From: Ignavibacteria bacterium
Lineage (GTDB): Bacteria > Bacteroidota > Ignavibacteria > Ch128b
Direction: 5' to 3'
NCBI GenBank assembly: GCA_016873845.1
Contig: VGVX01000003.1
Span: forward strand, 49,637-113,636
Length of the DNA: 64,000 nucleotides
Notes under the pieces: model-generated
What the model was told of the DNA's origin: nothing
Databases searched by the model: none
The model's input: only the letters and a program-made list of their open reading frames with translations
In this document: positions 25,699 to 29,307 of the stretch, piece by piece
Position numbering within the stretch: the stretch's first letter is position 1
Layout: each line of letters starts with the position of its first letter
Program-made: the position numbers and the translations under genes

Positions 25699-26310
25699 GT
25701 GAAACAACACACAAATATTTATAAGCTATTTTTTTCAGCTTTACTTTTCGTAATTGCTGTTTCATTCAATGTGAATGTTCTAGCTCAGGAAAAAGAGAAG
25801 GCACCGTTGAATAAAAAAATCAAAAATATTAAAGGTGACGTTACAAAGATTGTTGTTACTGCAGATGGAAAAGAGACAGTTTTCCAAGGTGAAGAAGCTC
25901 AAAAGCTGTTCAAGAAACTAAAACCAGAAGCAAAGAAAAGAGTTAAAGTAATTATGCTCGATGATGACGATGACATCTCTTGCATAGATGACGATAAGGT
26001 ATTTTTCTTCAAAGGGGATGATAATAAAGATGTTAAGATCTTTATGAAAAAACTTGATGAAGACTTTGACTGGACCGATAAAGGTGATAAAAAAGTAAAA
26101 AAAGAAATTAATGTTGAAGTCAAGGATGGCAAGAAGAAAGTGACTATAACTACAACCGAGGACGGAGAAAAAAAAGTTGATGTCTTAGAAGGAGAAGCAG
26201 CGGAAAAATTTCTGAAAGAACATGAAGCTAAAGGTGAACATAAAATGATGTTTAAAAATAAAGAAGGAAAAGAGATTAAAATATTTAAAAAGAAGATAGA
26301 AAAAGAGTAA
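25699..26310 (+). CDS. Secreted charged protein with internal duplication, unknown
   Basis: This 203-residue protein starts at GTG 25699, chosen because AAAGGAGA lies just upstream. A signal peptide covers about residues 1-30 (ending NVLAQ). The mature part is extremely rich in Lys, Asp and Glu. Two similar units are visible: VTADGKETVFQGEEAQKLFK (about 53-72) and TEDGEKKVDVLEGEAAEKFL (about 152-171), each followed by a basic stretch and a KIFMKK/KIFKKK end. I recognise no family. A periplasmic or surface ion-binding role is possible from composition but unproven. A terminator follows at 26328-26376. Confidence 0.6.
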   Translation: MKQHTNIYKLFFSALLFVIAVSFNVNVLAQEKEKAPLNKKIKNIKGDVTKIVVTADGKETVFQGEEAQKLFKKLKPEAKKRVKVIMLDDDDDISCIDDDKVFFFKGDDNKDVKIFMKKLDEDFDWTDKGDKKVKKEINVEVKDGKKKVTITTTEDGEKKVDVLEGEAAEKFLKEHEAKGEHKMMFKNKEGKEIKIFKKKIEKE

Positions 26311-26530: not shown

Positions 26531-26947
26531 ATGAAAGTCGCTAAAGAGTATAAATGGGAAATGGGTCATCGATTACATTTCCACGATGGTAGATGCAAAA
26601 ACCTACACGGTCATTCTTATAAAGCAATTTTTGAGTTCGAAGGAGGACTAAATGAAAATGGGATGGTGATCGACTTCTATGAAATCGACAAAATTGTGAA
26701 TCCCATTGTTGATGAACTTGATCATGCTTTTTTATGTCATGAAGAAGACATAGAGCTGCTCGAAGTTTTAACAAAATTGAAAAGCAAAACTGTCATCGTC
26801 AAGTTCCCCACTACAGCAGAAAATATTTCTAAATATTTGTGCGATAGAGCTGCAAATTCTCGGCTTCCAAAGAATTTAAACTTCCTTTCAGTTAAAGTGT
26901 TTGAGACAACAGATTCATATTCGGAGTCAACAATAACATTAAACTGA
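26531..26947 (+). CDS. queD: 6-carboxytetrahydropterin synthase
   Basis: This 138-residue member of the 6-pyruvoyltetrahydropterin synthase family converts dihydroneopterin triphosphate to 6-carboxytetrahydropterin, the second step of preQ0 synthesis. Zinc-binding histidines appear in MGHRLHFH and LHGHSY (spacing as in QueD), the catalytic Cys lies in GRCKNLHGH, and FPTTAENISKYL and the terminal VFETTDSYSE are family hallmarks. It begins the queD-queC-queF run, with 50 bases to queC. GTP cyclohydrolase (folE) is not in the window. Confidence 0.93.
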   Translation: MKVAKEYKWEMGHRLHFHDGRCKNLHGHSYKAIFEFEGGLNENGMVIDFYEIDKIVNPIVDELDHAFLCHEEDIELLEVLTKLKSKTVIVKFPTTAENISKYLCDRAANSRLPKNLNFLSVKVFETTDSYSESTITLN

Positions 26948-26997
26948 GTAGTTAGAGTTTCTTTTTCATTTCATTTTTTATAATTTGTTAAAGAAAA

Positions 26998-27696
26998 ATG
27001 AGTTTCGATTCAACTAAAAATCTTGCTGTAGTACTTACAAGTGGTGGGATGGATAGCTGCGTGACTGCAGCGATCGCATCTCAGGAATTTGAACTTGCAA
27101 TGCTTCACCTCAATTATGGACAGCGGACCGAAAACCGCGAGTTGAAAGCTTTCAATGATTTATCAGAATATTTTAAAGCAAAAGTAAAATTAATCCTTGA
27201 TACAGATTTATTCAGAAGAATTGGGAATTCATCTCTCACAGATTATTCGATTCACGTTTCAGAAGCGAATTTAAAATCAAAAGAAATTCCGACTTCATAT
27301 GTTTCGTTCCGGAATGCGAATATTTTATCAATGGCAGTTAGTTGGGCTGAGACTCTTGGTGCAAAAAAAATTTTTATCGGAGCTGTTGAAGAAGACTCTT
27401 CTGGTTATCCCGATTGTCGGAAAGTTTTTTATAAACAGTTTAATGCACTGATTGAAGTTGGAACGAAACCAGAGACAAAAATTGAAATTATTACACCTCT
27501 TATTTCAATGAAAAAAAACGAAATAATAAAAAAAGGAATCGAGCTTAATGCACCCTTTCACTTGACGTGGTCATGTTATCAAAGTGAGGAAATTGCCTGT
27601 GGAGTTTGTGATAGCTGCGCACTTCGACTGCGTGGATTTCAACAAGCTGGTGTTGACGATCCAATCCCCTATAAATCAAAACCGAATTATTTATGA
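26998..27696 (+). CDS. queC: 7-cyano-7-deazaguanine (preQ0) synthase
   Basis: This 232-residue ATP-dependent enzyme converts 7-carboxy-7-deazaguanine and ammonia to preQ0. The PP-loop SGGMDS is at residues 15-20, followed by [12 protein letters not shown]. The zinc knuckle is at the C-terminus in [19 protein letters not shown] (four cysteines). Motif [12 protein letters not shown] is also typical. It overlaps the queF start by four bases (ATGA), so the two are coupled. Confidence 0.95.
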
Positions 27697-28055
27697 AAAA
27701 TAAAGTTACTATACTTGAAACATTTGACAACCAGTATCCCCAAAGAGATTATGTAGTTACTCACTTCGCACCTGAATTTACCTCTGTTTGTCCAAAAACA
27801 GGACAGCCGGATTTTGCTGAGATAATCATCGAATATATTCCCGATAAAAAGTGTGTGGAACTCAAGTCTTTAAAGCTTTATTTAAATTCTTTTCGCAATG
27901 ACGGAATTTTTTATGAGAGTGTTGTCAATTTTATTTGCGATGATTTGATTAAGTTGATGAAGCCCCGTTACATAAAAGTTATCGGAGAGTTTAAGACTCG
28001 CGGCGGGATTGAAAGCATTATAACTGTTGAACACAATTCAAAAAAGAAAAAGTAA
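27693..28055 (+). CDS. queF: NADPH-dependent 7-cyano-7-deazaguanine reductase
   Basis: This 120-residue unimodular (YkvM-type) QueF reduces preQ0 to preQ1 with NADPH. The catalytic Cys33 lies in [14 protein letters not shown], and [20 protein letters not shown] carries the substrate Glu and His/Asn region. The terminal TRGGIE motif is present. Length matches the short family form. Its ATG overlaps the queC stop. With queE, queD and queC this completes preQ1 synthesis from the QueD substrate; tgt and queA are outside the window. Confidence 0.95.
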
Positions 28056-28061
28056 AACAAA

Positions 28062-28685
28062 ATGTTTCGAAACAGCGTTTATTATTTAGGCGGAATAGTA
28101 ATTTTTGTTTTCGGAATGTTTATTTATGGAATCGTTTCTAACTGGCGAGAGGTTGAACTGAATGATGTTCTCAAGGAAAAAAAATTACCAACTGGTTTCC
28201 AGCCAAAGTTAGTTATTAATAAAATTGATTATAAGCTCCATCTTTATGCCGATACAATATTGGTTAAAACCTATGATGTAGTTTTTGGTGGAAATCCAAA
28301 ATATGATAAACGTGACAGCGAAGATAGATATACGCCTAAAGGAAGTTATTTTATCTGCGATAAAAAAATTACAACTGGACTTGGAAAAACATTAGTTCTG
28401 AATTATCCAACAATTCATGATGCTGAGTACGGATTAAAGCAGAACATAATTTCAAATAAAGAGTATTTATTAATTGAAAGTGCATTTCAAAACCAATCCA
28501 TTCCACCAATGAATTCTAAACTTGGTGGAAATATTAAAATTCATGGGAATGGAAAATTTGATCTCATCCTTCGAAATTTACCATTCATATTAAATTGGAC
28601 AAACGGCAGTATCGCCGTCAATAACCGAGAAATTGAGGAACTCTATGATGCATGTCCGGTCGGGACTGAAGTTATTATTTATTAG
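28062..28685 (+). CDS. L,D-transpeptidase (YkuD) homologue with Cys replaced by Ser
   Basis: This 207-residue protein has an N-terminal membrane anchor (about 7-25) and a YkuD-type domain (about 48-207) with LVINKIDYKLHLY, GNPKYDKRDSEDRYTPKGSY, the conserved HGNGK, and WTNGSIAVNNREI. In active enzymes the last motif reads xGCI with a catalytic cysteine; here it is Ser183 (codon AGT, one base from TGT). Active family members make 3-3 peptidoglycan crosslinks or attach lipoproteins; this one may be inactive or altered. It begins six bases after queF, probably sharing its transcript. Confidence 0.8.
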   Translation: MFRNSVYYLGGIVIFVFGMFIYGIVSNWREVELNDVLKEKKLPTGFQPKLVINKIDYKLHLYADTILVKTYDVVFGGNPKYDKRDSEDRYTPKGSYFICDKKITTGLGKTLVLNYPTIHDAEYGLKQNIISNKEYLLIESAFQNQSIPPMNSKLGGNIKIHGNGKFDLILRNLPFILNWTNGSIAVNNREIEELYDACPVGTEVIIY

Positions 28686-29307
28686 CTTCGCAATCGTTTT
28701 TCTTTTCGGTTGCAAGTCTGAAAAAGAAGACCCTGCCAAAATGATTTCCGGAGGGAAATTAGAATCCAAGTTTGAAAAGCTTGAAGGTCAAGATCTTTTG
28801 GAAGAAGCGTCTTTACTTCTTGGCGAGGATGTATTCTTTGCCTCGTTGGATTTTTATATTGAATCTAAGGAAAAATCTCTTGCCGTAATTTCAACTGAAG
28901 TGAAAAACCGAACCACCTACGGAGTGAAATTTACACTTGTAGAATTTACTGACGATCTTGCAGAAGTAAAATTTTGCACCGATTTTATCGATGGCATAAA
29001 AGAAACTTCGGATTTTGGAATTAGAGAATTTCCCGACATAAACAGAACTTTTTTATTTTATAACAGTCGTTCTTCGTTCATTGGTTCAAGCGGCGGAGAG
29101 CTGTTCTTGTATTTGTTTGAGATTAAAACCGGTGAATTATTCACTTTCTATTTTTTTGAAGAGAATCAAAAGATAAAGCTAGAACTCTCAAAGAATTTAA
29201 AAGAGACTCAAAATTTCTTGTTAAGAGATTGGTTCTTATTAGAAGGGCAAAAAGTAATTCCAGAAATAAGTATGCATAAGGGGAGTGAATTATATGTCAC
29301 AAAATAA
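28645..29307 (+). CDS. Predicted lipoprotein, unknown
   Basis: This 220-residue product has a lipoprotein signal with lipobox LFGC around residue 23, followed by KSEKED. The Asp-free +2 Lys is compatible with outer-membrane sorting by E. coli rules, which may not hold here. The rest looks like a beta-rich soluble domain (FASLDFYIESKEKSLAVIST, YGVKFTLVEF) with no family I know. I chose ATG 28645 because GAGGAA lies just before it; a TTG at 28633 and an ATG at 28648 are alternatives. It overlaps the L,D-transpeptidase homologue by about 40 bases, suggesting coupled translation. Confidence 0.55.
   Translation: MMHVRSGLKLLFISFAIVFLFGCKSEKEDPAKMISGGKLESKFEKLEGQDLLEEASLLLGEDVFFASLDFYIESKEKSLAVISTEVKNRTTYGVKFTLVEFTDDLAEVKFCTDFIDGIKETSDFGIREFPDINRTFLFYNSRSSFIGSSGGELFLYLFEIKTGELFTFYFFEENQKIKLELSKNLKETQNFLLRDWFLLEGQKVIPEISMHKGSELYVTK

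Follow-up and report, generated by a model that had tools for sequence, protein, structure and literature searches.

Serine in place of the catalytic cysteine in an Omp85-linked clade of YkuD proteins from Ignavibacteria

The YkuD gene and its neighbours

The window analysed here, a 64,000-nucleotide stretch of contig VGVX01000003.1 from an Ignavibacteria bacterium, carries a gene for a YkuD (L,D-transpeptidase-like) protein, followed by genes for a lipoprotein and an Omp85 protein (Table 1). The Pfam YkuD model (PF03734) covers residues 50–206 with E 1.5e-12 and 48.8 bits, above the curated cut-off of 23.4, so that the protein has the domain expected of L,D-transpeptidase enzymes. YkuD enzymes carry a catalytic cysteine at the position of Ser183, which lies here in the active-site motif NWTNGSIAVNN. 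The initial annotation had described the open reading frame, its coordinates and strand, the TNGSIAVNN motif and the AGT codon of Ser183 just as we find them, and had stated that the His motif and the membrane anchor are kept; both are present in the window protein, as His161 (in KIHG) and as a hydrophobic N-terminal stretch. A stretch of this kind occurs in all 86 scored members of the clade described below, the window protein included (best 19-residue Kyte-Doolittle mean at least 1.97), and residues within it are conserved (F15 in 85/86, G18 in 82/86, Y22 in 85/86 and G23 in 86/86). The anchor probably lies in the inner membrane, a placement that, like the orientation of the protein, we infer. 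AlphaFold models of the protein were poor, with a mean pLDDT of 52.2 and 39.7 in two runs using a 4-row alignment.

Table 1 Features of the YkuD locus, in window coordinates
Feature	Position	Strand	Basis
QueD-QueC-QueF preQ1 genes (local context only)	26531..28055	+	Domain and family matches
Ser-type YkuD (L,D-transpeptidase-like) protein, 207 aa	28062..28685	+	Open reading frame and Pfam YkuD match
N-terminal anchor, probably transmembrane (residues 5-27 approximately, bounds set by eye)	28074..28142	+	Hydropathy
Lys83 codon, aligned with DpaA Lys83	28308..28310	+	Profile alignment to 8ikr
TPKG motif, residues 91-94 (mostly TPEG in Cys relatives)	28332..28343	+	Glu counts, Ser against Cys rows
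His161 codon (CAT; KIHG), usual general-base position	28542..28544	+	Alignment of Ser and Cys rows
Ser183 codon (AGT), catalytic Cys position	28608..28610	+	Sequence and alignment
Lipoprotein with a lipobox judged by eye (LFGC; its Cys is codon 22)	28648..29307	+	With the start chosen, 38 bases are shared with the YkuD gene
Omp85 protein with POTRA stretches, distinct from the BamA-like copy elsewhere in the genome	29340..31460	+	Pfam Omp85 and POTRA

The lipoprotein has no match in Pfam or NCBIfam, and its family lacks a convincing family or solved-structure match; among 30 aligned members (A6) the lipobox Cys22 is invariant. The Omp85 protein has an Omp85 barrel with POTRA stretches, as do TamL, TamA and BamA, and falls below the NCBIfam cut-off for each of them (163.7 of 400 bits for TamL, 139.2 of 297.15 for BamA and 74.5 of 625 for TamA). 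Identity with BamA was rejected on this score and because a second Omp85 protein in genome G000 (C6), 834 residues long and BamA-like, has the neighbours typical of BamA (uppS-like and Skp-like, by eye). Identity with TamA or TamL was rejected on the scores together with the lack of a TamB match at E 0.001 in G000, an assembly of 162 contigs. Across the six genomes of the window's family, TamB matches were seen in three (G003, G004 and G005; L209-L213), with none at E 0.001 in G000, G001 and G002.

The grouping of the YkuD gene with the lipoprotein and Omp85 genes, proposed as an operon in the initial annotation, is borne out at the locus as a tight same-strand cluster. The preQ1 genes, which had been placed in the same operon, drop out as a meaningful functional partner, as QueF adjoins the YkuD gene in only five of 86 loci, all from family f1, and in none of the other 81. 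Further upstream, positions 25699-26310 encode a 203-residue, Asp/Lys-rich protein with a signal-like start and no Pfam match at E 0.01.

Serine 183 is invariant across the clade

Among 391 genomes drawn from the class, a profile search found matches in 102, and 86 of these have a full-length copy. The remaining 16 gave weak or partial matches only; five of these were fetched, four having cysteine at the motif and one (L097) failing to align there. Residue 183 is serine in all 86 distinct full-length members, one from each of the 86 class genomes; 11 weak-match class genomes and the weak additional matches in G139 and G299 lie outside these counts. The xGC motif of the catalytic cysteine is thus absent from the window protein and from every other member. 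The initial annotation had claimed that serine is fixed at the nucleophile position, a view that cysteine-bearing orthologues would have overturned, and the alignment has serine throughout.

Closest to the window, relatives occur in five of the six genomes of its family (G000 included), and all read GSIAVNN, as do three named Ignavibacteria MAG records whose proteins are the same as those of three of the family genomes; the class name used here is taken from the titles and NCBI ranks of these records. G000 (2,984,218 bases) has one further YkuD match, with the motif SHGCVRV. In all, five YkuD loci other than those of the clade were read in family genomes (L001, L201-L204), and each has SHGC, a motif that the Ser clade lacks.

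Ser183 is encoded by TCN in 83 members and by AGY in three. On the tree described below this takes at least three switches between TCN and AGY, with serine retained throughout. Because TCN and AGY differ by two base changes, serine itself appears to be selected. The earlier remark that the AGT codon of the window is one base from TGT is correct as to the codon and says little, given the TCN codons of most members. A sequencing error, a strain-level change or a decaying pseudogene, for which that single-base distance from a Cys codon is the only argument, has a negligible probability in view of serine in 86/86 members, 83 of them with TCN codons, and of the absence of internal stops from every match listed in the class and order searches.

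Cysteine-bearing relatives were sought in the window's phylum only, where 101 of 395 genomes matched, 61 of them outside the class. Out-of-class relatives were read at 39 places in 37 of these 61 genomes. WTxGC was found at all 40 places comprising these 39 and one weak in-class match, and three further weak in-class matches also have cysteine; across the 43 distant relatives read at the motif, Cys and His are both present in 43. For a quick tree of 129 rows, 86 with Ser and 43 with Cys, the 30 profile columns at the N-terminus and the columns of residues 161 and 183 were excluded, and L097 was omitted for lack of alignment at the motif; on this tree the Ser/Cys difference needs a single change. 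The Ser clade has 76% SH-aLRT support on this quick tree. We found no earlier report of a natural Cys-to-Ser YkuD clade among the open-licence papers listed.

The remaining active site and known relatives

The Ser clade shares its domain with the YkuD L,D-transpeptidases such as B. subtilis YkuD (PF03734 in 45/45 scanned members), and the 43 Cys relatives have the HG and WTxG motifs in the same order. It differs from them in more than the nucleophile, and the picture of a single isolated base change suggested by the initial annotation is not supported. Residue 161 is His in 68 Ser rows, Gln in 15, Glu in two and Ile in one, against His in all 43 Cys rows (absence in 18/86 versus 0/43, Fisher p 0.0007 with relatedness ignored), and the His/non-His pattern among Ser rows takes at least 12 changes on the tree. 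The Glu of TPEG is found in none of the 86 Ser rows and in 41 of the 43 Cys rows. The initial annotation had expected a serine version to be either inactive as a transpeptidase or chemically different; the absence of His from 18 members favours a loss of the usual acyl-transfer chemistry.

Other parts of the site are strictly kept: G162, G164, W179, T180 and G182 are each present in 86/86. Lys83 is conserved in 75 members and replaced by Arg in three; the case for a kept pocket is weakened by five members in which His161 and Lys83 are both missing. Two cysteines are widespread in the clade, Cys99 in 82/86 members (28356-28358 in the window) and Cys147 in 78/86, and may pair as a disulfide; in the window protein, residue 147 is Ile (28500-28502).

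The best solved-structure profile matches are the DpaA/YafK/LdtF amidase (8ikr, E 6e-05) and the H. pylori structure 4xzz (E 5e-05), which is Csd6 according to PMC10653827, and both matches fall mainly in the N-terminal half. The profile alignment to 8ikr, with residue numbers counted by hand, pairs Lys83 of the window protein with Lys83 of DpaA. According to the same paper, the side chain of DpaA Lys83 contacts the D-centre carboxylate of mDAP in a docking model, and a K83A variant has no activity (PMC10653827). Lys83 is also present in most Cys relatives and so does not single out DpaA. The catalytic Cys143 of DpaA aligns with the serine of the clade. The NCBIfam DpaA model NF040599 matches five of 45 members (best E 2.3e-6) and gives no match at E 0.01 in the other 40, including the window protein, which has no NCBIfam hit at that threshold.

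Serine-dependent chemistry has been described on the YkuD/YafK fold. Legionella Lpg1514 (YafK) is reported to hydrolyse beta-lactams through Ser132, Cys174 being kept and not needed (PMC13400389). As Ser132 lies at another position, we ruled out that it represents the change seen here.

Linkage to Omp85 and possible roles

Within the flanking sequence read, 84 of 86 loci have an Omp85 gene downstream of the YkuD gene and on its strand; in G003 it lies beyond the flank, which brings the count to 85. The exception is G156 (L083, L218), in which the YkuD gene and a small downstream gene are on one contig and Omp85 is on another; the small downstream protein has no clear lipobox by eye. A relative of the lipoprotein is present at the loci of f1 (5/5), f22 (33/34) and f26 (4/4). 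None was seen in the 43 loci of f10, where Omp85-like sequence begins no more than about 100 bases from the end of the YkuD gene.

Families f10, f22 and f26 belong to one order, in which 143 of 164 genomes gave a match to the profile (among high-quality genomes, 95 of 109; among genera, 63 of 68); residue 183 was read in the fetched set of these. A single match is present in 142 genomes, and G756 has two partial matches on two contigs. Of the 21 genomes with no match, many are drafts and some of the absences may be gaps; 14 were examined for Omp85, and all 14 keep it (partial in G726 and with one internal stop in G730). In G688, G314 and G253 the frr, lipoprotein and Omp85 genes follow in a row with no YkuD gene between, and in G148, G217 and G366 Omp85 comes after frr, and no YkuD or lipoprotein gene was seen. 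The same-genus genome G001 was not counted as an absence, as its contig ends inside the lipoprotein gene. This pattern suggests an accessory role for the YkuD protein, whose gene would be lost from genomes that retain Omp85, and any dependence is one-sided at most, because Omp85 persists where the YkuD gene is missing.

The explanation we prefer, to which we give an even chance, is that the YkuD domain has been re-used as an accessory of the lipoprotein-Omp85 module, binding peptidoglycan without transpeptidation. In this scheme, the catalytic cysteine of these inner-membrane-anchored proteins of Ignavibacteria would have given way to serine once, after which selection would have kept the serine. 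The domain would no longer carry out L,D-transpeptidation and may still bind peptidoglycan through its mDAP stem peptide, Ser183 serving to hold that ligand or the loop. As a putative partner of the lipoprotein and Omp85 encoded downstream, the protein could tether outer-membrane assembly to the wall or inform it of the state of the wall. The sharp division between serine (86/86) and cysteine (43/43) after one change, the codon-class changes through which serine was kept, the losses of His161 and of the TPEG Glu, and the retention of Lys83 are consistent with this, as are the linkage to Omp85, the wide occurrence of matches in the order and the persistence of Omp85 in genomes with no copy. On the other side, His is retained in 68/86 members, five have neither His161 nor Lys83, the AlphaFold models are poor and the clade support is 76%; adjacency is not proof of interaction, and in G156 the YkuD gene is apart from Omp85. 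EnvC and NlpD are catalytically dead LytM regulators, in which degenerate peptidoglycan-enzyme domains have been re-used in envelope control. They may be compared with the Ser clade by analogy only, having another fold and an amidase as partner, against an Omp85 neighbour here.

An invariant serine fits a catalytic residue equally well. The domain could be a serine-dependent YkuD enzyme, with Ser183 as the nucleophile, activated by His161 in members that have it and by Lys83 or another group in the rest. Such an enzyme would act, by cleavage or transfer, on an amide or ester bond that joins peptidoglycan to an envelope component, in the manner of DpaA or a carboxypeptidase. We regard this as possible and somewhat doubtful. 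The retention of serine through at least three codon-class changes, the invariant G162, G164, W179, T180 and G182, the frequent His and Lys83 and the precedent of Lpg1514, though with a different serine, all speak for such an enzyme; it is harder to reconcile with the absence of His from 18 members in no fewer than 12 changes, with the five members that have neither His161 nor Lys83, and with the absence of the TPEG Glu from all 86. A narrower proposal, that one lineage evolved a Ser-nucleophile YkuD enzyme with less dependence on His, which forms or cleaves a link from the wall to an outer-membrane component handled by the lipoprotein-Omp85 module, seems unlikely.

More improbable still is that the role of the domain has nothing to do with peptidoglycan. 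It might then serve as a chaperone or scaffold, for instance, acting on the lipoprotein or the POTRA domains, and the pocket residues would be kept for folding. The conserved residues of the membrane segment, the Omp85 linkage in 85/86 loci, the His and TPEG Glu losses and the five members with neither His161 nor Lys83 would suit such a role. Against it, Lys83, the mDAP contact in the DpaA docking model, is kept in 75/86 members, and the invariance of W179, T180, G182 and S183 suggests that a ligand pocket has been kept.

Returning to the preferred explanation, an accessory of the lipoprotein-Omp85 module, the change of nucleophile suggests re-use that links the wall with outer-membrane building, not simple breakage. 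Kept across several families of the class and steadily linked to Omp85, it would provide a clear case of the re-use of a wall enzyme. It makes testable whether, in these diderm bacteria, a YkuD domain that is either dead or serine-converted connects outer-membrane assembly with peptidoglycan. For the Ser clade, "L,D-transpeptidase" would be the wrong annotation until activity is shown. In other families (L193, L200, L225, L226, L228 and L230), the YkuD-Omp85 cluster or a lone Omp85 gene lies behind genes of the translation type (pyrH-like, frr-like) or a malic-enzyme-like gene, as judged by eye from translations.
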